A stretch of 55,701 bases of DNA from Microcaldota archaeon (GTDB lineage: Archaea > Micrarchaeota > Micrarchaeia > Micrarchaeales > Micrarchaeaceae): the NCBI GenBank assembly GCA_021791535.1, contig JAJYWI010000023.1, positions 1-55,701 of the forward strand. The letters are read 5' to 3'. Under the pieces are notes generated by a model. The model did not search any database and had not been told where the DNA came from. It saw only the letters and a program-made list of their open reading frames with translations. Below, piece by piece: positions 25,130-36,700 of this stretch (position 1 is its first letter; each line of letters begins with the position of its first letter). A program made the position numbers and the translations under genes.

Positions 25130-25551
25130 GCATGTGCAGTCGCGCCTATCCCTACAATCACTCCGACAAGTGCATGCGCGTACCTGTTACTGAACTTGTC
25201 CCAACCGTATATGTAGATTGCAAGGAAAATCGCTTCAAGGAAGAAGGCAAAGACTTCTATGTAGAGCGGCAGTATGGCTACCTGGCCAACGAGGACCATG
25301 AAGCCAGGCCACAAAAGGAAGAGCTCAAGCGCAACAAGAGTGCCAGAGGCAGTTCCGATGGCAAAGAGCACAACGAGCACAATGGAAAGGCGTCTAGCAA
25401 TTACTGAGTAATACCGATCCCCATTCCTGATGCCTATTATTTCTGCTATCACTATTATGGCCGGAAGCGCTATGCCGACAGAGGCGAGTATTATGTGCAC
25501 GCCGAGGGAGAAGGCCATCAAGAACCGATCGAAATCGATAACAGGTATCAT
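25130..25551 (-). pseudogene. cydA: truncated cytochrome bd quinol oxidase subunit I (cydA remnant)
   Basis: From an ATG at 25551, about 137 residues match the N-terminal four TM helices of archaeal CydA: FDRFLMAFSLGVHIILASVG with the haem-ligand His near 19, RLSIVLVVLFAIGTASGT, LLWPGFMVLVGQVAILP and EVFAFFLEAIFLAIYIYGWD with the two buried Glu. Similarity stops after HALVGVIVGIGA, close to 25140. Beyond that the frame reads antisense through the lipid-kinase gene to 24688. Complete CydA is about 450 residues, so the quinol loop and later helices are gone. No cydB is present. A residual TATA box remains. Confidence 0.8.
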
Positions 25552-26693: not shown

Positions 26694-27008
26694 ATGGCAG
26701 AATTCGTTAATGCCGCCAAGATGAGCGAGCTTGAGGAGGGAAAGGGCAGGATGGTATCGGTAAATGACCAGGAAATAGCCCTGTTCAAGATAGACGGGAA
26801 AGTTTATGCAATACAGGAGCACTGCCCACATCAAGGCGGACCGCTCTCTGATGGCGACCTAAGCGGCAATGTTGTAATGTGCCCATGGCACGGTATGACC
26901 TATGACATAACTACCGGCAAGGCCGCTCCTGACGCTTGGGACCAAAGCTTCAAAGTGAAGACTTACAGGACGAAAATAGACGGAGATGACGTAATGGTTG
27001 AGGTCTAG
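26694..27008 (+). CDS. Rieske-type [2Fe-2S] ferredoxin
   Basis: 104 residues. The two cluster motifs EHCPHQGGPLSDG and MCPWHGMTYD give the Cys-x-His and Cys-x-x-His ligands. No TM helix or signal peptide, so it is a soluble ferredoxin of the NirD/BphF type and not a bc1-complex subunit. An electron-transfer role with the neighbouring reductase is possible but unproven. Its last 4 nt overlap the convergent gene ending at 27005. Confidence 0.92.
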   Translation: MAEFVNAAKMSELEEGKGRMVSVNDQEIALFKIDGKVYAIQEHCPHQGGPLSDGDLSGNVVMCPWHGMTYDITTGKAAPDAWDQSFKVKTYRTKIDGDDVMVEV

Positions 27009-27193
27009 ACGACCTTAAATGCCAGACCAACGGCCAACGAAAAAATCAAAAGCGACGCTCCGGCAACGCCCAGCCTCATATGCGCACCGGATCGAATAAA
27101 AAATGGAACTAAGCCAAATACGCAGGCCGCATTAAGCAGTACAACGCCACAAAGGATTGCGACCCTTACAACAAACGATAGCACACCTAGCAC
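27005..27193 (-). CDS. small two-TM membrane protein, last gene of the T4SS-like operon
   Basis: 62 residues with two hydrophobic helices (about 5-30 and 40-60) and a short basic loop between them (FFIRSGAHMRLG). Not recognised. Start ATG overlaps the preceding stop by 7 nt, so it is translationally coupled to the operon. Size and topology could suit a VirB3-like or accessory pilus protein, but nothing in the sequence proves it. Confidence 0.55.
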   Translation of the reverse strand: MLGVLSFVVRVAILCGVVLLNAACVFGLVPFFIRSGAHMRLGVAGASLLIFSLAVGLAFKVV

Positions 27194-27828
27194 TTTGTCA
27201 CCCTTATGTTGCAGTTCACAAGGCCAAGCAGCAACCCAGCGCTATCCTTTGAGAACGTGCGCACCGAAGAATCCAAATGCTCCTCTTCGTCGCCCATCAA
27301 CGCTATCAAACTAGCACCATGCTCCGACCAGTCTCCAAGCATCGATACCCCCTCCTTCTCCAGCAGCTTTTCAGCTGTGCCTGCCAGGATCCCGCTGCCA
27401 GAACGTACCCACTCATCATATATGTGCCTCGCGACAGTAGAGCATCTGCCGAAACCATCGCGCTCAATGTAACGCCCATTAAGCCTGATCAACCCAATCC
27501 TATCTGCGGCTCTTAATGCATAGCGGATCTCGTCCCCAGCAAGGTTTTTGGCTTCCGCGCCAAAAGCAAAGCGATTACTCATCGAACATGCAACATCTTC
27601 CTCTGCCACTGCCATGTGCCTCACCGCCGAGCAGCCATCAAGGCGGTTGCTTGAGGACCTTACAGACTCCATAAGGTCTACCAACGAAAACTTTCCTAAC
27701 TTCGCCACGTCTGCATCCTCATAGATAAAGATTGAGCCATGCGAATAGCCCCAATCTGAAACGGCTATCAACGCCAGGCATGCCAAGGCCCCGGCCAGCG
27801 TGTAAAACAGGCTAAGCGCGTACTGCAT
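27187..27828 (-). CDS. unknown protein with N-terminal membrane anchor, T4SS-like operon
   Basis: 213 residues. A single TM helix at about 5-24 is followed by a soluble domain with five Cys (DGCSAVRHM, DVACSMSNRF, FGRCSTVARHIYDEW, VNCNIRVTKC). Anchor plus extracytoplasmic Cys-containing domain is compatible with a periplasm-side VirB8- or minor-pilin-like role; this is inference from topology only. TAATG-type 1-nt overlap with the upstream gene. Family not recognised. Confidence 0.65.
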   Translation of the reverse strand: MQYALSLFYTLAGALACLALIAVSDWGYSHGSIFIYEDADVAKLGKFSLVDLMESVRSSSNRLDGCSAVRHMAVAEEDVACSMSNRFAFGAEAKNLAGDEIRYALRAADRIGLIRLNGRYIERDGFGRCSTVARHIYDEWVRSGSGILAGTAEKLLEKEGVSMLGDWSEHGASLIALMGDEEEHLDSSVRTFSKDSAGLLLGLVNCNIRVTKC

Positions 27829-28466
27829 TATTTGCCACCCCTAACAATCGCGCTTACCCTCCCCACAAGCTCAGCGTCTATCCCAAATGCCCTTCCGATG
27901 CTCGCTGGCGCGTCCTTATCCCTGCGCGCCATCGCATCCATGACCTTTGCGCAGAACTCCTTGCAAGCGTCTAGCTCCCCCGCAAGCTCATTCTTCGCCT
28001 GTATAGCTCCATAAATATCATGCGCCAGGCGTGAATTTGCGAATGTCAACGCCTCTACCTCCTTTGATAGGCGCCTGATAATCCTGCTCTCCCTCCCCTC
28101 CAATTCATATATCGGATAATGCCTGGCAAGCGCATCTATAACGTAGCTGTATATCGCATCCAACCTTATATCGTAAAGGCCGTCAACCATAGCCAGAATG
28201 GCGAGCAGCCGCATCAGCCCGATAGAGAAAACCATGTCTGTAGGCTTCGAGAAGTGGAAAATGAACCTTATCCCATCTTGGCGAAGCTCTAACAGTTGCT
28301 TATCAGGCGCACCAATCACCTCGTAGCTCAAATGCGTACCGCGGCCCACCAGCTTAAGCGCAGCATTGTTCTCCATCCTGCCCCTGAGCTGCTGCATGCT
28401 GCACTTTAGCCTGGCATTAACGTTGAATGCTGAGCAGAAATCACCATTACTCTTCAAATGCAACAC
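27828..28466 (-). CDS. unknown soluble helical protein, T4SS-like operon
   Basis: 212 residues from a GTG at 28466 that overlaps the ATPase gene by 20 nt. No TM segments. The middle is hydrophobic/helical (FSIGLMRLLAILAMVDGLYD) and the C-terminal half is a likely coiled coil (RIIRRLSKEVEALTFANSRLAH, IQAKNELAGELDACKEF). It could be a cytoplasmic partner of the ATPase. Family not recognised, and the true start may be internal. Confidence 0.65.
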   Translation of the reverse strand: MLHLKSNGDFCSAFNVNARLKCSMQQLRGRMENNAALKLVGRGTHLSYEVIGAPDKQLLELRQDGIRFIFHFSKPTDMVFSIGLMRLLAILAMVDGLYDIRLDAIYSYVIDALARHYPIYELEGRESRIIRRLSKEVEALTFANSRLAHDIYGAIQAKNELAGELDACKEFCAKVMDAMARRDKDAPASIGRAFGIDAELVGRVSAIVRGGK

Positions 28467-29559
28467 CCCTGATTGCCTCTATGGCGACAGCTATGGAGCG
28501 GTCTTTGATTCCAATGGCCCTTAAGAAGGTAAACACATCTGCACGCCCTAATCCCACACCAAATAGGAAGCCGACGAGCCGTGCAATATCGACGCCGCCA
28601 GAGTTCTCTGCGAAGAACCTCTCTATGCGCATCGTGGCATCTCCGCCAAAGCCCATGCTCCCTAGAACCGAACCTAGTTTTCTCACGCTTACGTTCACCG
28701 TCATCGAACCACCACGTATAGTATAAGTCCTGAAATCAAATCCGTGCACATGTTCAAGCATGAACCTCCTCGGGGCGCTTCCTCCTCTGTAGATGAGCGA
28801 GACGATGCAGCTGCCCCTCTCGAGCGTTTGTGCTACAGCGGTATGGCCCGGCTCCAAAAGCCCAGAGGATACTAATCCATTCAGGTTATCTGACCCCTGC
28901 AACCTGAACACGAAGCTGCACGCGGCATTGGATAGCACCTCATTGTTCACATCGCCGACAAGCTGCGTTGCGGCTATCACCATCAGGCCAAACTTCCTGC
29001 CCTCCCTGAAAAGCTTGCCCAGATCCTGCTTAAGGTTAGCAAGTTTCCAAGCCTCGTCGACAACAAGCACCATCTTCGTATCAGACCCTGGCCTGAGGGA
29101 AAGTATGAACTTTCTTACCATTGAGAGCATGACTCCTGCCAGAGCCGCTTTCTCTGTGTCGCTAGGCGCAGCCGATAGGTCGACGCTGTTTACGCCTTCT
29201 ACCAAATGCTCGATCGCAGGTAGGTCCGCAGCGCGCACAGCTTTCCACACCCTTCCGCACAGGAACTCCACCATATCGCTGTACTCGGAATTCCAATCGA
29301 TGATAAATACGCTGTAATGCCGATCCACGCTCAGCCCCGCAAGCAGGCTCTTCACCAGATAGGTCTTCCCCGAGCCGGTCATTCCAACTACCGATACGTG
29401 TGGGTTTACCAGCTTGGTATTGTCAAGGAAAAATGGCAGCCTGTACCTCAGCGTCTTCCCTACATACACCCCATCGCACGATAAGTCAGCTTCCGGCTCC
29501 GATTGGTCCATCACCGCGAGCTGCAGCGCAACTGCTTTCGAGTCAGTTTTTATGATCAC
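28447..29559 (-). CDS. VirB4/HerA-type ATPase (motor domain)
   Basis: 370-residue P-loop ATPase of the HerA/FtsK superfamily. Walker A GMTGSGKT at 59-66, Walker B MVLVVDE at 163-169, and FREGRKFGLMVIAATQ at 184-199, the Arg/Gln sensor region seen in VirB4, TrwB and HerA. The last 80 residues are a small helical domain. Standard VirB4 proteins carry a long N-terminal domain before the motor; here only about 50 residues precede it and the missing part seems to be encoded by the gene just upstream, whose stop overlaps this ATG by 4 nt (ATGA). Likely powers pilus assembly or DNA movement. Confidence 0.85.
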   Translation of the reverse strand: MIIKTDSKAVALQLAVMDQSEPEADLSCDGVYVGKTLRYRLPFFLDNTKLVNPHVSVVGMTGSGKTYLVKSLLAGLSVDRHYSVFIIDWNSEYSDMVEFLCGRVWKAVRAADLPAIEHLVEGVNSVDLSAAPSDTEKAALAGVMLSMVRKFILSLRPGSDTKMVLVVDEAWKLANLKQDLGKLFREGRKFGLMVIAATQLVGDVNNEVLSNAACSFVFRLQGSDNLNGLVSSGLLEPGHTAVAQTLERGSCIVSLIYRGGSAPRRFMLEHVHGFDFRTYTIRGGSMTVNVSVRKLGSVLGSMGFGGDATMRIERFFAENSGGVDIARLVGFLFGVGLGRADVFTFLRAIGIKDRSIAVAIEAIRGVAFEE

Positions 29560-30299
29560 AATACCGCCGAATCGAACCTCATCATCCGTACCATTTCCTC
29601 TCCCGAGAGCAATGACGACCTCGTCCCAAACGTAGCGTCGAATTCAGACGAGAGGCTCCTTATCTGCACCAGTGCCTCCTCCTCAGCCTTGTGCCTGCTC
29701 TCGGAAACCGCGCTGGTCATTGCGTAGTAAGCAAGCCTCAGTGGCATGCCTCCCCCATTTATCCCCTCAATCTCGTGCTCCAGCAGCGATATCTCGCTCT
29801 TCAACCTGTTCGCCGACACAAGCCCCTTACCTGACCCTGGGTCCTCTATCCTTGATAGCTCTATCTCCTTCAAGCCCTTCCTGGTCTGCAGTCGCTCAAG
29901 CAGTCTTGCCACCCCAACCCTCTCTACGTGCATGACTAGCTTGAACGGGAAGTTGGTGTGCGCTATCATGTTCTCTATCTTTTCCCTGTCTATGACCGTC
30001 GTGCCTAACGATACCACCCTCGCAGCAGACGTAGCTGTGTAGCGTTTCGCTGATCTCGAGATTATTACTGACCTGTTGCCGCTAAGCTCAAACCCACTGA
30101 AGACCTGCACAAGGTTTGTCCTCTCAAAGATCCGCGCCTCTATTATCCCCCACATCTTATGCAAGACAAGCGCCGATAATGATAGGGCAGCAGCCAACGA
30201 TACGACATACGGATTCAGCGTTGCGGCCCCTAGCGCCAGCGCGACAAAGCACGCAGTTATGAGGATGTACGGCACGTACTTATCGATGTCTAATCTCAT
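29556..30299 (-). CDS. two-TM protein resembling VirB3 fused to VirB4 N-terminal domain
   Basis: 247 residues from the ATG at 30299, preceded by GTGAGCAA. An earlier start at 30329 would overlap the VirB6-like gene. TM helices at about 8-28 and 31-50 are followed by a cytoplasmic domain. The segment NRLKSEISLLEHEIEGINGG ... FDATFGTRSSLLSGEEMVRMM matches the layout of VirB4 N-terminal domains: a helix, a variable loop, helices, then a conserved L-x-x-x-E-x-x-x-x-x end. VirB3 is a two-TM protein often fused to VirB4, so this looks like the VirB3-VirB4N half of a split protein. Assignment is by architecture. Confidence 0.65.
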   Translation of the reverse strand: MRLDIDKYVPYILITACFVALALGAATLNPYVVSLAAALSLSALVLHKMWGIIEARIFERTNLVQVFSGFELSGNRSVIISRSAKRYTATSAARVVSLGTTVIDREKIENMIAHTNFPFKLVMHVERVGVARLLERLQTRKGLKEIELSRIEDPGSGKGLVSANRLKSEISLLEHEIEGINGGGMPLRLAYYAMTSAVSESRHKAEEEALVQIRSLSSEFDATFGTRSSLLSGEEMVRMMRFDSAVL

Positions 30300-30306
30300 T
30301 TGCTCA

Positions 30307-31332
30307 CTAGAACACGTCAAATCTGCCAAAGGATACCTCTGAACCGAGCATCTTGGCGAGCTCCCTGACCGCCGTTATTGTCAAGACGACACTGAGCACA
30401 GGGAAGAAGAAAACCTGCACTATCAGAAGGGCAAGCCAGCTCAGCAGTTCCTTTATCAGGCCGGAGAAGGAGCTTACCAGCCCAGATAGGCCTGACATCA
30501 GACCCTGCAGTGGACCGGATATCGCATTCGCAGATAGCGCACCAAGCGAGAGCATGCCTCCCTCAAAACCGTCCGCCTGTATGGAGAATGCGCTCAACGC
30601 CGCCTGGTTTATCACGCCGGAGTAGTTGGCGGTTATCTGCGCATCAAGCAGGTACGTCAAAGGGAATATGGCGAAAAGGCCTATCGCTATTGCAATAGCT
30701 GTGCCACCAAGCTTCCTTGTAGGATAAAAGGTCCTCAGCACAAGGCCAACCGGCAGTAGCAGCGGCACAGCAACCACCGCAATAACACTCAGCAGCGCCG
30801 ATTGGGCGTATATGCTTATTATCGCAAACGTGAGCCCTGTTATTATGAAGTCTTCTTGCGAGAGCACTGGCGTAAGTATGTTGGCAAATGATATCGATGC
30901 CACGCCAAAATCCAGCTGCACAGAGGATATGAGGCCTAGCGTGACATATATCCCAGATATCGGCAGCAGCAGTTCCAGCGACGAGTCGAGCAGGGAAGGA
31001 TAGCTGGCGTTGTTTATAGTGACCGGCTTTATCCCGACCAGATAGTTGTATGCGAAGCATATCGCGTAGTTGGTGCTCATGTAGCTGCTGCACGTCGCAT
31101 TGGCGTGCGCTCCAGAAACGACGCCGTTTATTATGCTGGTCCCAAGCCCTGCTGGACTGAAGAAGAGGAAAAGGGAGCCCACTATCGCCCCATTGATGAA
31201 TGATTGGACAAGCTCATCCCTCCCGAAGTTCTTTAGCCTGCTGTTGTCCATCGCATAGCCGAGGCCTAATACAATCCCGCCTACGCTTATCATTATGGCT
31301 ATCACGCTAACGGCTATGTCATATCCTAACAA
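30307..31332 (-). CDS. VirB6/TrbL-like polytopic membrane protein
   Basis: 341 residues with about 7-8 hydrophobic segments. An N-terminal pair (8-28, 45-64) and an extracytoplasmic loop with two Cys and N-glycosylation sequons (ANATCSS, NNAS) come first. A central block follows (PVLSQEDFIITGLTFAIISI, LLSVIAVVAVPLLLPVGLVLR). Near the end is a Gly/Ser-rich amphipathic stretch (LQGLMSGLSGLVSSFSGLI) and a last TM. The central large-hydrophobic block with FYPTRKLGG resembles VirB6/TrbL and CedA-type channel proteins. Ends 8 nt before the next gene. Confidence 0.65.
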   Translation of the reverse strand: MLGYDIAVSVIAIMISVGGIVLGLGYAMDNSRLKNFGRDELVQSFINGAIVGSLFLFFSPAGLGTSIINGVVSGAHANATCSSYMSTNYAICFAYNYLVGIKPVTINNASYPSLLDSSLELLLPISGIYVTLGLISSVQLDFGVASISFANILTPVLSQEDFIITGLTFAIISIYAQSALLSVIAVVAVPLLLPVGLVLRTFYPTRKLGGTAIAIAIGLFAIFPLTYLLDAQITANYSGVINQAALSAFSIQADGFEGGMLSLGALSANAISGPLQGLMSGLSGLVSSFSGLIKELLSWLALLIVQVFFFPVLSVVLTITAVRELAKMLGSEVSFGRFDVF

Positions 31333-31339
31333 TCCACCA

Positions 31340-31702
31340 CTAAAGCGAGTTCGAGGTCATGTTGCTGAGCAGGTGCGACGAAGCTGTCGCAAGAGACGTA
31401 GAGGCCACGCTCAGGACCCCGACCACAATCGCCCCTATAATTATGTTTATGGCGGTGCTGTGGAAATTCGCCCTCTTATCTGGTGGCATCACCTGCCCGA
31501 CAGCGTAGAATACGCCAGCTATGATGAAGAGCACAGCGCTCAGTATTGGCCCAACCTGCCCTAGCGCGCTTTTCAGGTTTCCGAGCTCTGTAACGATCTG
31601 CAGGGCCGCCTGGGGGGACGCTCCGTTGGTCGTCCCCAGCAGTAGCAAAGCCACTGTTAACGGCACAAGCGCGCACTTAGCGGCCTTTATCAACCCCAAC
31701 AC
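31340..31702 (-). CDS. VirB2/TrbC-like pilin
   Basis: 120 residues from a GTG at 31702. An N-terminal signal peptide (about 1-27, cleavage plausible near TNGA) is followed by two TM helices (about 49-70 and 84-104) separated by a short polar loop QVMPPDKRANFHS. Signal peptide plus a two-helix hairpin is the VirB2/TrbC and archaeal CedA1/TedC pilin layout, and the IAGVFYAVGQ / INIIIGAIVVG helices fit it well. It is the first gene of the operon, as expected for the most abundant subunit. TATA at 31722-31731 would make the message leaderless. Confidence 0.72.
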   Translation of the reverse strand: MLGLIKAAKCALVPLTVALLLLGTTNGASPQAALQIVTELGNLKSALGQVGPILSAVLFIIAGVFYAVGQVMPPDKRANFHSTAINIIIGAIVVGVLSVASTSLATASSHLLSNMTSNSL

Positions 31703-31811
31703 AACACCTTATACTTAGATAAATATATTATACACAAGTAAATATTTAAATATTTCGGTATAATGACACCAAAGAATAAATGCGTTTAGTGCCATATACT
31801 GCCGTGGGAGG
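31703..31811. promoter_or_regulatory. divergent promoter: T4SS-like operon / gltA operon
   Basis: Very AT-rich. Minus TATA-like TATAATATATTT at 31722-31733 is about 25 nt from the pilin GTG. A perfect 16-bp palindrome AAATATTTAAATATTT lies at 31740-31755, and plus TATA GGTATAATG at 31757-31765. The palindrome sits between the two promoters and could be a shared operator or simply a bidirectional TATA. GGGAGG directly precedes the gltA ATG. Confidence 0.5.
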
Positions 31812-32963
31812 ATGGCTGACGAGGCGCCAATAGTGCATAAGGGACTGGACAGCGTATACGTGACCGAAAGCAGCATATGCAAAGTCGACGGCACGGAAGG
31901 GAAGCTCTATTACCGAGGCTATCCTATAGAGGAGATCGCCGAAAACTCAAGCTACGAGGAGGTAGCATACCTCTTGATATATGGAAAGCTGCCAAAAAGG
32001 AATGAGCTCGACAGTTTTATCGCACAGCTCAAAGCCGAGAGGGATCTGCCGCAGGGCATAATCGAGATGATTGCAAGCAACGCTGCGAAAGCAGATCCCA
32101 TGGACGTCTTAAGGACAGCAGTTTCATCGCTATCGCTCTACGACAACGAGGCAGCTGATTCATCCAAAGAAGCGAACATAAGGAAAACGATAAGGCTAAT
32201 ATCAAAGATGTCGAGCATCGTGGCTACGATAGGCCGCTACAGGAACGGCGGTGGATACGTCAGCCCTGACGCTAAGCTCTCGCACTCCGAGAACTTCCTA
32301 TACATGCTTAACGGGGCAAAACCAGCCCCGGAGCAGCATAAACCCGTAGAGATGATGTTCATTCTGCAGGCGGAACATAGCTCCAATGCCTCGACGTTCT
32401 CCACGCTTGTAACAGGATCCACCCTTTCTGACCTGTATTCAGCTGTCACTTCCGGAATCGGGACTCTCAAGGGCCCGCTCCACGGCGGAGCTGATGAGGA
32501 GGCATTGAGGATGATGTACACGATAGGCGACCCGAGCAATACAGAGAATTATATAAACGAAGCGCTGGCTGGCAAGAAGAGGATAATGGGGTTTGGGCAC
32601 AGGGTCTACAAGACGTACGACCCTAGGGCGAGAGTGATAAAGGGGTATTTGCTATCGCTGCAGAGCAACTCGTCAGAAGAGGTGCGAAGGCTCACCGAGA
32701 TAGCGCTAAGGGGGGAGAAGCTGATGATAGAGAAGCTCGGCCAGAGCCACGGAATCTGGCCGAACGTCGATTTCTTCGCCGGACCAGTCTATGTGAGCGC
32801 CGGAATAAAGGTGGAGCTTTTCACGCCGCTTTTCGCCGCAAGCAGGATATCCGGATGGTGCGCCCACATGCTGGAATACTGGAGCGATAACAAGCTGATA
32901 AGGCCTCTTGAGCAGTATACCGGCCAGATAGGCCTCAAATACGTGCCTATAGACAAGAGATGA
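31812..32963 (+). CDS. gltA: citrate synthase
   Basis: Condenses oxaloacetate and acetyl-CoA. 383 residues, the short archaeal/Gram-positive dimeric type. GPLHGGADE and GFGHRVYKTYDPRA carry the active-site His residues and an oxaloacetate-binding Arg. NVDFFAGPVY holds the catalytic Asp. KLYYRGYPIEEIA is the N-terminal family motif. First gene of a five-gene TCA operon, divergent from the T4SS-like operon. Confidence 0.95.
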   Translation: MADEAPIVHKGLDSVYVTESSICKVDGTEGKLYYRGYPIEEIAENSSYEEVAYLLIYGKLPKRNELDSFIAQLKAERDLPQGIIEMIASNAAKADPMDVLRTAVSSLSLYDNEAADSSKEANIRKTIRLISKMSSIVATIGRYRNGGGYVSPDAKLSHSENFLYMLNGAKPAPEQHKPVEMMFILQAEHSSNASTFSTLVTGSTLSDLYSAVTSGIGTLKGPLHGGADEEALRMMYTIGDPSNTENYINEALAGKKRIMGFGHRVYKTYDPRARVIKGYLLSLQSNSSEEVRRLTEIALRGEKLMIEKLGQSHGIWPNVDFFAGPVYVSAGIKVELFTPLFAASRISGWCAHMLEYWSDNKLIRPLEQYTGQIGLKYVPIDKR

Positions 32964-32967
32964 GCGA

Positions 32968-33900
32968 TTGAGGAAGAAGGTAACCATTGTAGGTGCTGGA
33001 AGGGTGGGTTCAACCACGGCAGAGCTCCTAGCGAGGAAGGACATCTGCGACATAGTAATCTGGAACAGGACAGAGGGCACGGCAAAGGGCATAGCCCTTG
33101 ACATAATGGAGAGCGGGCCGATTGACGGGTTCGACACAAAAGTAATCGGTACGTCAAATTATGCAGACATAAAGGGCAGCGATATAGTAGTAGTAACGGC
33201 AGGGATGCCGAGAAAAGAGGGGATGTCCAGAGACGATTTGCTCAAGACAAACGCGCAGATAGTTGGCGGGATATGCGGGCAGGTTAAGGCGAATGCGCCA
33301 GAGAGCAAGCTCATAGTGCTGACCAACCCGCTCGACGAGATGGTCTACCTGGCAAAGAAGGTTACTGGATTCCCAAGGGAACGTGTTGTAGGCATGGCGG
33401 GCATACTCGACTCGGCAAGGTTCCGCACCTTCATAGCGCAGGAGCTAGGGGTTAGCGTCGAAAGCGTGTCCGCCATAGTGCTCGGAGGGCACGGCGACTT
33501 CATGGTTCCGCTGCCGGCAAATTCAACGGTAAACGGCACCCCGATTACAGAGCTTATGCCGAAGGAGAAAATAGACCAGCTCATACAGAGAACGCGGGAC
33601 GGCGGAGCCGAGATAATACGGCTAGAGAAGGAATCGAGCGCGTTCTATGCACCAGCGTCCTCATTGCTCCAGATGATAACAGCTATGCTAGAGGACAAGA
33701 AGGAGGTGCTCCCATGCGCGACGTTCCTAGACGGCGAGTACGGCATCAGCGGCATATTCATGGGCGTTCCGGTCGTGATTGGCAGCAACGGGGCGGAGCG
33801 CATAATACAGCTAAAGCTCTCTGAAGGGGAGAATGCGGCGCTGAAAGCGTCCGCAGAGAGGGTAAAAGCGCTTACAAAACAAGTGGATTTGATGCTCTGA
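32968..33900 (+). CDS. mdh: malate dehydrogenase
   Basis: 310 residues from a TTG at 32968, 4 nt after gltA. Rossmann motif IVGAGRVGSTTA. AGMPRKEGMSRDDLL carries the malate-specifying Arg of the active-site loop, GILDSARFR the substrate Arg, and LGGHGDFMVPL the catalytic His. At the end of beta-2 (DIVIWNR) the usual NAD-selecting Asp is replaced by Asn followed by Arg, which would tolerate NADP (inference). Oxidises malate to oxaloacetate for citrate synthase next door. Confidence 0.92.
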   Translation: MRKKVTIVGAGRVGSTTAELLARKDICDIVIWNRTEGTAKGIALDIMESGPIDGFDTKVIGTSNYADIKGSDIVVVTAGMPRKEGMSRDDLLKTNAQIVGGICGQVKANAPESKLIVLTNPLDEMVYLAKKVTGFPRERVVGMAGILDSARFRTFIAQELGVSVESVSAIVLGGHGDFMVPLPANSTVNGTPITELMPKEKIDQLIQRTRDGGAEIIRLEKESSAFYAPASSLLQMITAMLEDKKEVLPCATFLDGEYGISGIFMGVPVVIGSNGAERIIQLKLSEGENAALKASAERVKALTKQVDLML

Positions 33901-33907
33901 TGATATC

Positions 33908-36700
33908 ATGGCTGGTAACGGAAATATCAAGGAAACGGCTCTAAAAAGCTTCGACCTTAATGGTAAAAGGGTGCTCTACTATTCGATACCTGCATTGGAT
34001 GAGCTAGGGGTAGGCAGGACATCAAGGTTGCCGTTTTCAATACGCGTTGTATTGGAATCGCTTGTAAGGAACCTTGATGGCAAGTCGGTCAACGAAGAGG
34101 ACGTGAAGGCGCTGGCCAATTGGAATGCGAAGAGCCCAGATGACAGGGACATACCGTTCAAGGTGTCAAGGATACTGATGCAGGACTTTACTGGTGTGCC
34201 TGCTGTGGTCGATATAGCGGCGATAAGGGACTACATAACGAAAAACGGAGAGGCGCCAGATGCGGCGCAGCCGATAATACCGACAGATCTGATAATAGAC
34301 CACTCCGTGCAGGTCGACGCATTCAATGTCATACAGGCATTGGAGATAAACCAAGAGAAGGAGATAGAGAGGAACGCGGAGAGATACAAGCTGCTGAAAT
34401 GGGCTAGCCAGGCGCTTAAGAACTTCAGGGTGTTCCCGCCTTCTGCAGGCATATGCCACCAGGTGAACCTGGAATACCTGGCGACGTGCGTTACCATGCG
34501 TCAGGATGGCAGCAACTACTTCGCCTACCCAGACACGCTTGTCGGTACCGACTCCCACACCACGATGATAGATGGTTTGGGCGTAGTCGGATTCGGTGTT
34601 GGTGGAATAGAGGCAGAAGCGGCGCTCCTGGACCAGCCCGTCTCGTTCACAACCCCGAAGGTGCTCGGAGTGCGCCTGTCAGGCAGCCTTAAGGACGGAG
34701 TCACAGCGACAGACTTTGCATTAACGCTGACAAGGTTGCTCAGGGAGAAGGGGGTCGTCAACATGTTCGTCGAGTTCTTCGGAGACGGGCTAAGGAACCT
34801 GTCACTGCCAGACCGCGCAACGCTCTCTAACATGTGCCCGGAGTATGGAGCAACCATTGCGATATTTCCAGTGGATGAAGAGACACTGCACTACATGAGG
34901 GTGACCGGAAGGAGCGCGGAGCAGATAGAGCTCATAAGGAGGTACTATACAGAGCAGCGTATGTTCGACATCGACTATAGCAAAGTCGAATATAGCGACA
35001 CTCTCGATGTTGATTTGGGTTCGATAGAGCCGAGCGTCTCAGGGCCGGCGCAGCCGAAGGAGCAGATGCCGCTCGGCAGGATAAAGAATGAGTTCATAAG
35101 CATATTTCTGGAAGACGGCAAGGGCGACCCAAACAAGATTAACGCAAAGGACTATACGAGATGGTCCGGTGAGAGCATGGCGGTGGGAAGCAGCCATATA
35201 AAGGACGCGCCACTCCACCACAACCAAAAATCTGTGAAGATAAAATATGACGACGGTTACGAGGTCACCCTGTCGGATGGCGATGTCGTCATATCATCGA
35301 TAACCAGCTGCACCAATACGAGCAATCCATCAGTGATGATAGGAGCCGGGCTCCTCGCAAAGAAGGCGGTTGAAAAGGGCCTCAGGGTCAACACGAGAAA
35401 GGTGAAAACAAGCTTGGGACCTGGCTCTCGAGTGGTCACGAGATACCTGCAGAAGGCAGGTCTCATAGAGCCTCTGGAGAAGCTAGGCTATGAGCTGGTG
35501 GGATACGGCTGCATAACCTGCATAGGCAACAGCGGTCCGCTCATAGAGAAGCAGAGCGAGGCTATAAACGCCAACAAGCTTGCTGTCGCATCGGTATTGT
35601 CCGGCAACAGGAACTACGAGGCGAGGATACACACGGATGTGAGGGCGAATTACCTGATGTCGCCTCCTTTGCTGGTGGCTTTCGGCATAGCAGGCACAGT
35701 GCTCAAGGACCTCACAAAGGAGCCGCTGGCGAAGAACGACAAGGGAGAAGATGTCTACCTGAAGGACATCTGGCCCACACAGGCAGAGATAAAGGAGGTC
35801 ATGGACAGGGTCATAAGCGAGGACATATTCGAGAAGGAGTACGGCAGCCACATATACAATGTCAATCCGTATTGGAACAAGCTACCCGCAGCATCAGGCA
35901 AGATGTACGCATGGGAGCAAGCCAGCACATACATAAGGATGCCGCCGTTCTTCGAGGGCTTCGACCCGCGAAGCAAGGGGAGCATCGAGCCTATAAAGAA
36001 CGCAATGGTGCTGGCCGTCTTCGGCGACTCGATCTCTACGGATCATATATCGCCTGCAGGGGCGATAAGCGCAGCCAGTCCGGCAGGCAAGTACCTCATT
36101 GAGCATGGCGTCCAGCCGGCAGATTTCAACAGCTACGGGTCCAGGCGGGGCAACCACGAGGTCATGATGAGAGGCACATTCGCCAACAACCGCATAAAGA
36201 ATCTCCTGCTGCCTGGCACCGAAGGAGGGTTCACGCTGCACTATCCGGACTCGCAGAAGGGTACGATATACGATGTTGCTATGCGGTACAAGGCCGAAGG
36301 TGTGCCGCTTATCGTTCTTGCGGGATTGGAATACGGCTCCGGAAGCTCGCGCGACTGGGCGGCGAAAGGGCCGATGCTGCTCGGGGTTAAGGCGGTGGTT
36401 GCGAAGAGCTTCGAAAGGATCCATAGGAGCAACCTCGTAGGAATGGGCATAATCCCGCTGCAGTTCAAGGGGGGAGAGGACGCGCAGACGCTAAAGGCGG
36501 ACTTCTCGAAACCAATTACGATATTGCTGAGCGATGAGATGAAGCCCAGAGATGTAGTGAAAATGAGATACACAAGAAGCGATACCGGGGCGGAAGCAGA
36601 AGCAGAAGTCATAAGCAGGATAGACACGCCGATAGAGATGGAGTACTACAGGTCAAAGGGCATACTTAACTATGTTATAAAGAAATTGCTGTCCAAATAA
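33908..36700 (+). CDS. acnA: aconitate hydratase (AcnA type)
   Basis: 930 residues, full-length AcnA/IRP1-type. IDHSVQVD, GTDSHTTMIDGLGVVGFGVGG, SSITSCTNTSNPSVMIGAG and GYGCITCIGNSGP provide the three [4Fe-4S] Cys and substrate loops. The swivelling domain has GLEYGSGSSRDWAAKG. Isomerises citrate to isocitrate. The cluster would come from the Suf system at 45.7-52.3 kb. Located 8 nt after mdh. Confidence 0.96.
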   Translation: MAGNGNIKETALKSFDLNGKRVLYYSIPALDELGVGRTSRLPFSIRVVLESLVRNLDGKSVNEEDVKALANWNAKSPDDRDIPFKVSRILMQDFTGVPAVVDIAAIRDYITKNGEAPDAAQPIIPTDLIIDHSVQVDAFNVIQALEINQEKEIERNAERYKLLKWASQALKNFRVFPPSAGICHQVNLEYLATCVTMRQDGSNYFAYPDTLVGTDSHTTMIDGLGVVGFGVGGIEAEAALLDQPVSFTTPKVLGVRLSGSLKDGVTATDFALTLTRLLREKGVVNMFVEFFGDGLRNLSLPDRATLSNMCPEYGATIAIFPVDEETLHYMRVTGRSAEQIELIRRYYTEQRMFDIDYSKVEYSDTLDVDLGSIEPSVSGPAQPKEQMPLGRIKNEFISIFLEDGKGDPNKINAKDYTRWSGESMAVGSSHIKDAPLHHNQKSVKIKYDDGYEVTLSDGDVVISSITSCTNTSNPSVMIGAGLLAKKAVEKGLRVNTRKVKTSLGPGSRVVTRYLQKAGLIEPLEKLGYELVGYGCITCIGNSGPLIEKQSEAINANKLAVASVLSGNRNYEARIHTDVRANYLMSPPLLVAFGIAGTVLKDLTKEPLAKNDKGEDVYLKDIWPTQAEIKEVMDRVISEDIFEKEYGSHIYNVNPYWNKLPAASGKMYAWEQASTYIRMPPFFEGFDPRSKGSIEPIKNAMVLAVFGDSISTDHISPAGAISAASPAGKYLIEHGVQPADFNSYGSRRGNHEVMMRGTFANNRIKNLLLPGTEGGFTLHYPDSQKGTIYDVAMRYKAEGVPLIVLAGLEYGSGSSRDWAAKGPMLLGVKAVVAKSFERIHRSNLVGMGIIPLQFKGGEDAQTLKADFSKPITILLSDEMKPRDVVKMRYTRSDTGAEAEAEVISRIDTPIEMEYYRSKGILNYVIKKLLSK

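Follow-up and report, generated by a model that had tools for sequence, protein, structure and literature searches.

The closest described counterparts of the system considered here are archaeal DNA importers and certain bacterial type IV secretion systems (T4SS). Namely, Ted, found in Thermoproteales, consists of the TedC pilin, the TedA channel and the TedB ATPase (PMC9905601), while Ced, found in Sulfolobales, comprises CedA1, CedA, CedA2, CedB, CedD and CedE (PMC11868833). Chromosomal and mostly relaxase-less T4SS are found in Patescibacteria, the candidate phyla radiation (CPR) (PMC12102498), and in nanohaloarchaea, which belong to DPANN, giant proteins with VirB4/TraG-like ATPases have been proposed to act in host interaction (PMC10266531). 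Here, we describe an operon of seven genes, g1 to g7, in a Microcaldota archaeon of the Micrarchaeota, with a genome of 0.74 Mb (93% complete), which is probably host-dependent. The operon lies on contig JAJYWI010000023.1 of assembly GCA_021791535.1; the whole stretch that was analysed, 55,701 nucleotides (nt), is called the window below. The operon would encode, with a probability that we put at roughly 75%, a domesticated T4SS-like translocation machine of the Ced/Ted type, equipped with a pilus, where the figure refers to the class of machine, its cargo being a separate matter. We favor this reading because a pilin, an adjoining polytopic protein, a CedB-like ATPase anchored in the membrane and a second, co-inherited motor come together in a system that is chromosomal, in essence vertically inherited and, as tested, free of relaxase. 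In the open-access literature (subscription papers and preprints were outside the scope) we found no description of these Micrarchaeota operons.

Operon structure, conservation and inheritance

Seven co-directional open reading frames occupy positions 31702-27005 of the window on the minus strand, and are numbered in the order of transcription (TM, transmembrane segment; aa, amino acids; system 2 is a paralogous system in the same genome, described below):

31340-31702, minus strand: g1, predicted VirB2/TedC-type pilin, 120 aa (PF18895 and TrbC/VirB2 matches)
30307-31332, minus strand: g2, polytopic membrane protein, 341 aa (hydropathy, 7 hydrophobic segments; conserved columns)
29556-30299, minus strand: g3, TM hairpin and cytosolic domain, about 247 aa from ATG 30299 (constant adjacency to g2; system-2 homologues)
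28447-29559, minus strand: g4, HerA/VirB4-superfamily ATPase, 370 aa (Walker A GMTGSGKT, Walker B LVVDEA)
27828-28466, minus strand: g5, soluble protein, 212 aa, C-terminal half helical/coiled-coil (conserved beside g4)
27187-27828, minus strand: g6, membrane-anchored protein, 213 aa (position and architecture in relatives)
27005-27193, minus strand: g7, small two-TM protein, 62 aa (matching position and topology in most relatives)

We confirm the seven-gene operon, whose gene order recurs in relatives far beyond chance. Namely, the order g1-g2-g3-g4 is repeated in about 42 of the loci fetched from 60 relatives, g5 comes next in nearly all of them, and small membrane-protein genes occupy the places of g6 and g7 in most of the fetched loci. 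In particular, a near relative known from a Candidatus Micrarchaeota metagenome-assembled genome (L004), whose contig starts inside g2, has g2-g7 in matching order beside Rieske and aldo-keto reductase genes, as in the window. An earlier note on this DNA had described a leftward seven-gene operon and had named conserved co-occurrence of its genes as a check, and on both points it agrees with what we find. The overlaps of 1-20 nt that it listed are present from g3/g4 through g6/g7 (4 nt at g3/g4, up to 20 nt at g4/g5, 1 nt at g5/g6 and 7 nt at g6/g7), whereas g1/g2 and g2/g3 are separated by 7 nt instead, given that g3 is taken to start at ATG 30299, kept in the closest relative and favored over the listed TTG 30329.

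Members of the g2 family were found by a profile search in 263 of the 301 genomes of the phylum. The window-type system, as judged from strong pilin matches, is present in about 109 genomes, that of the window included, from two families of one order, and the pilin adjoins g2 wherever coordinates were compared. A tree of concatenated g2, g3 and g4 recovers one of these families (f2) with a support of 0.999 and unites the other (f1) except for a long branch (L078). In other words, the tree follows the families, which argues for an essentially vertical inheritance of the operon. All seven genes are under purifying selection: between two relatives, the ratio of nonsynonymous to synonymous rates (dN/dS) is 0.06 for g1, the most conserved product, 0.07 for g2, 0.10 for g3 and g4, 0.15 for g5, 0.25 for g6 and 0.33 for g7, all of these values being rough, with dS near saturation. 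What is more, the core-gene flanks of the operon are kept within the genus, in keeping with the chromosomal rather than plasmid-like setting that had been claimed from the window.

Could the operon nevertheless be the remnant of an integrated conjugative element, and not a cellular system? T4SS genes are usually mobile, and islands of the micrarchaeon Mia14 have been termed potential conjugative elements (PMC5498576). Against this stand the tree, the purifying selection and the conserved flanks, as well as the searches for plasmid and phage relatives, which returned none for g2 and generic ATPase matches only for g4; in viral contigs, there were weak partial ATPase matches for g4 and none for g2. 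In view of the family-following tree and the lack of plasmid or phage relatives of g2 in these searches, we disfavor a mobile element and consider this origin very improbable.

Pilin and ATPase

The g1 product has a hydrophobic N-terminus, which is likely a signal peptide, and two hydrophobic helices linked by a basic PPDKRANFH loop. It matches PF18895 (T4SS_pilin) with 26.9 bits (cut-off 26.6) and TrbC/VirB2 with E=5e-4, while 15 of 18 orthologues match T4SS_pilin and 12 of 18 the VirB2 family. By these matches g1 is a VirB2-type pilin, which is what the earlier note had seen in it, namely a pilin-like protein with a signal peptide and two TMs. Comparison with the solved CedA1/TedC chains gave no direct sequence match, and searching PDB sequences with profiles of g1, g2 and g3 brought up no meaningful match.

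Among NCBIfam models, g4 scores best against CedB (5e-20, 71.6 bits), with CedD and VirB4 models among the next, and the CedB model is matched by all 19 g4 orthologues tested. The fourth gene is, as had been proposed, a HerA/VirB4 P-loop ATPase. One can ask whether it is instead a DNA-repair HerA helicase with the membrane genes as unrelated neighbors, a placement that the note itself had named as speaking against its view. It is true that g4 matches Pfam DUF87/HerA and several HerA structures in the PDB, but so does the whole superfamily. The repair HerA model reaches 27 bits (1e-6), the genome (about 93% complete) lacks NurA (PF09376), which partners repair HerA, and the membrane genes stand in a fixed order. 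With CedB scoring higher and NurA absent, we reject the repair function, whose probability we regard as close to negligible.

A second ATPase encoded apart from the operon

The idea of a self-contained minimal machine of seven genes did not survive the comparison with relatives. Namely, two further components have their genes elsewhere in the genome of the window (G000), a cognate second ATPase (g9) and a protein with three TMs (g8):

G000:C14:7809-10378 (the same as L075:3810-6379), minus strand, on a contig separate from the operon: g8-g9 pair, 3-TM protein and 732-aa HerA/VirB4-superfamily ATPase

In general, g9 has about 750 aa, a P-loop, an EEAQ Walker B motif, weak HerA/TraG-type matches and no N-terminal TM. 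It lies near the operon in 20 of the fetched relatives and is usually preceded by g8 (about 97 aa, three TMs); in many relatives the pair follows g7. The co-occurrence of g9 and the operon was checked in 50 genomes from the two families, picked for completeness and not at random, with the operon scored by g2 at E <=1e-45. Of the 36 genomes that have the operon, 34 also have g9, as against 1 of the 14 that lack it (Fisher p=4e-9, an optimistic value because related genomes are not independent). The single exception is a genome of the window's own genus (G001, 89% complete). This distribution argues that g9 is a part of the machine even when encoded far off, and the machine, as predicted from these genomes, is one of nine genes, g8 and g9 included.

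A g9 with one in-frame stop occurs in four genomes (G007:C3:291866-294040, G014:C21:4130-6058, G015:C1:359484-361703 and G246:C1:11069-12967), and a g2 with one in-frame stop in G032; these are either sequencing errors or the beginning of decay in some lineages. A third HerA/CedB-like ATPase (581 aa), nuclease-like by eye in its C-terminal region, is encoded at L075:8663-10408 on the plus strand, apparently outside both systems.

As to the parts of conjugation machines that the earlier note had reported missing, the relaxase PF03432 (other relaxase families were not searched) and the VirD4-type coupling protein PF02534 are indeed both absent from this genome of about 93% completeness.

Membrane proteins and a paralogous system

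The descriptions of the second gene as polytopic and of the third as a two-TM protein with a cytoplasmic domain are borne out by the seven hydrophobic segments of g2 and the TM hairpin of g3. In g2, which carries the motif LRTFYPTRxLGG, C81 and C92 are invariant; they are located in a loop (alignment A2) and possibly form a conserved extracellular disulfide. Sequence and profile searches against known families gave no match for g2, and g3 had no match among known families either. Alignment of both by hhalign with single R388 sequences of VirB3, VirB4, VirB6 and VirB8 gave nothing, single sequences being a weak test. From gene order, topology and paralogy, we propose that g2 is a channel of the VirB6/CedA type, and from gene order, architecture and paralogy, that g3 is the membrane anchor, or N-terminal part, of a split VirB4-CedD-like ATPase. 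There is precedent in CedB/CedD for VirB4-like N-terminal domains split over two proteins (PMC11868833); a g3-g4 fusion was not found among 24 outgroup genomes.

The paralogy mentioned above refers to a second T4SS-like system in the genome of the window:

G000:C25, loci L081 (2-8164) and L076 (119-9177): system 2

It resembles the window system in having a pilin-like protein, several g2-like proteins, two g3 homologues (hhalign 99 and 98%), a g4 homologue (hhalign 100%) and a 245-aa homologue of g5 (hhalign 97.7%), and differs from it in its six polytopic subunits, in the size of its CedB/CedD-like ATPase, 513 aa, and in a 786-aa surface protein. Five of the six polytopic proteins give 42-96% in comparison with the g2 profile, and most of the system-2 polytopic proteins have in common with g2 a GxxLRxxxxTRxxGG signature. 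No counterpart of g9 was found in system 2. Several g2-family matches per genome across the class point to the system-2 type as the widespread one, which suggests that this type is class-wide and that the compact window type occurs mainly in one order.

Of the remaining products, g5 is proposed to be a cytosolic adaptor. In g6, which shows a weak colinear match (47%) to the C-terminus of the 786-aa protein, a single TM and a Cys-rich outer domain had been assumed; an outer position of this domain is the less likely one. Namely, the cysteines are not conserved among relatives and the matching domain there follows a second TM, so the C-terminal domain is probably cytosolic. Some relatives have a g6 whose two TMs enclose an immunoglobulin (Ig)-like domain of about 90 aa (L058:10495-11493, L042:7337-8353 and L049:7156-7974), a candidate partner-recognition module.

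Genomic setting

Upstream of the operon lies its likely promoter, predicted from sequence:

31703-31811, minus strand: AT-rich intergenic region, promoter candidate, with a TATA-like TTTAAATATTTA about 45 nt upstream of g1; divergent from citrate synthase

The 3' end of the operon runs into a convergent Rieske-type gene (26694-27008), and several relatives from the genus have a divergent gene of citrate-synthase size upstream of the operon. Adjoining the operon, genes for citrate synthase, malate dehydrogenase and aconitase follow one another at 31812-36700 on the plus strand; such genes of the tricarboxylic acid cycle are uncommon in a genome of this size. At 25132-25551 on the minus strand, cydA (cytochrome bd subunit I) is represented by its first 139 residues, followed by an oppositely oriented gene. 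The remainder of cydA and cydB were not found in the window, nor was cydA found elsewhere in the genome; the cut is either a deletion or an assembly join.

Discussion

How close is the machine to Ced and Ted? The proposal of a minimal relative of these systems stands as far as the VirB2-like pilin and the ATPase nearest to CedB are concerned; as regards the channel, g2 is polytopic and stands at the expected place but has no sequence match. The presence of a second, larger paralogous system departs from the proposal. Several observations weigh against our assignment. In particular, the pilin match of the window's g1 barely exceeds the cut-off; g4 has no N-terminal domain of the kind present in CedB and VirB4 and lies far under the CedB equivalog cut-off (71.6 of 700 bits), so that it is to be seen as a relative of CedB and not as a proven orthologue; similarity of g2 and g3 to CedA, VirB6, VirB3 or the VirB4 N-terminal domain was not detected in the searches made; and AlphaFold models from two sequences (the window and L004) were unusable, with a mean predicted local distance difference test score of 46 for g3 and 36 for g2. 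For lack of a match for the channel protein, membership in the Ced/Ted group itself cannot be taken as established.

If the machine is of this kind, one can envisage its working as follows. The g1 protein would be exported, reside in the membrane as a pilin of two helices and be built into a thin pilus, under which g2, as a VirB6/CedA-like channel, and the g3 hairpin would form a membrane base. The hairpin would dock the g4 ATPase, while g9, the cognate second ATPase encoded elsewhere with g8, would feed or pull the substrate. In this scheme, g5 would act as a cytosolic adaptor and g6, g7 and g8 as scaffold or partner-contact parts, and DNA would be imported from, or exchanged with, neighboring cells, as in Ced and Ted. 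A simpler possibility is a pilus for attachment, with the ATPases driving its assembly and retraction and nothing being translocated. The strong conservation of the pilin would agree with this, and the conjugative pili of many systems serve mainly attachment. That said, a channel-like polytopic protein and two different HerA/VirB4-superfamily ATPases exceed the needs of a simple pilus, and we find an attachment function improbable.

As for the cargo of the translocation machine that we favor, DNA, through import or exchange, is the most likely candidate, although we would put its chances slightly short of even; it is the most economical choice, since both the family of the ATPase and the simplicity of the architecture are as in DNA importers. 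The main rival, which is possible but carries less weight with us, assumes the same class of machine in the service of episymbiosis, moving proteins, nutrients or nucleic acids between the micrarchaeon and its host, a role of the kind proposed for the chromosomal T4SS of Patescibacteria that lack a relaxase. It is the main rival because in one Patescibacterium the T4SS, whose PF18895 pilins are typical of that group as well, is essential for epibiotic growth (PMC12102498), and because archaeal Richmond Mine acidophilic nanoorganisms (ARMAN) touch their hosts through pili-like threads (PMC5498576). A chromosomal, vertically inherited system in which relaxase PF03432 and VirD4 were not found is in line with such a role, as is g6, the most membrane-exposed candidate, which evolves fast and has gained Ig-like domains in relatives. 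However, g4 is nearest to a DNA-import ATPase, and many relatives that lack the window-type system retain system 2, which implies that the lifestyle does not strictly depend on the former. Moreover, the ARM-1 micrarchaeal co-culture shows intercellular nanotubes that were ascribed to the host (PMC11329633), and these thus are not evidence for the window machine.

On a broader level, one may speculate that domesticated T4SS-like machines are a class-wide feature of Micrarchaeota and constitute a DPANN apparatus of episymbiosis, namely a large, near-universal system 2 together with a compact machine, present in one order, that has a split VirB4-like ATPase and a second, co-inherited motor. We consider this generalization unlikely: were it true, the class-wide machines would be the archaeal counterpart of the T4SS that the Patescibacterium needs on its host. 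To our knowledge, the only links between DPANN archaea and their hosts seen so far are pili-like threads and the host-assigned nanotubes. The conserved operon of pilin, membrane protein and ATPase provides named genes for studying how DPANN archaea connect or trade with hosts, and the whole gene set may be a means for these cells to exchange DNA or other kinds of material with partner cells. If confirmed, it would extend Ced/Ted-type machines beyond Thermoproteota and provide a parallel to the T4SS essential in a CPR episymbiont.

Comparison with known systems

In nanohaloarchaea, as in the window, the ATPases are of the VirB4 family and the organisms are DPANN archaea, but there the ATPase is fused to a giant Ig-repeat protein and no pilin-channel operon has been described (PMC10266531). 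The T4SS of Patescibacteria are similar to the window system in their chromosomal location, their mostly relaxase-less composition, their PF18895-type pilins and their occurrence in probable epibionts with small genomes; they differ in belonging to the bacterial mating-pair formation (MPF) lineage MPF-FATA, in having VirB3-, VirB6- and VirB8-like parts that profiles recognize and in their single-chain VirB4 (PMC12102498). With Ced, the window system shares two ATPases and a two-TM pilin, while it differs in giving no CedA match, in an ATPase under the CedB equivalog cut-off and in five further conserved genes (PMC11868833); nor is the window system known to be induced by UV. Finally, it is set apart from Ted by its occurrence in Micrarchaeota, by an ATPase without the N-terminal domain accompanied by the separate hairpin protein g3, and by the extra conserved g5-g8, and the likeness of g2 to TedA is one of position and not of demonstrated sequence homology. 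What the window system and Ted have in common is a pilin with a likely signal peptide, a polytopic gene directly after it, a VirB4-like ATPase, a chromosomal location and an associated extra HerA-like ATPase (PMC9905601).

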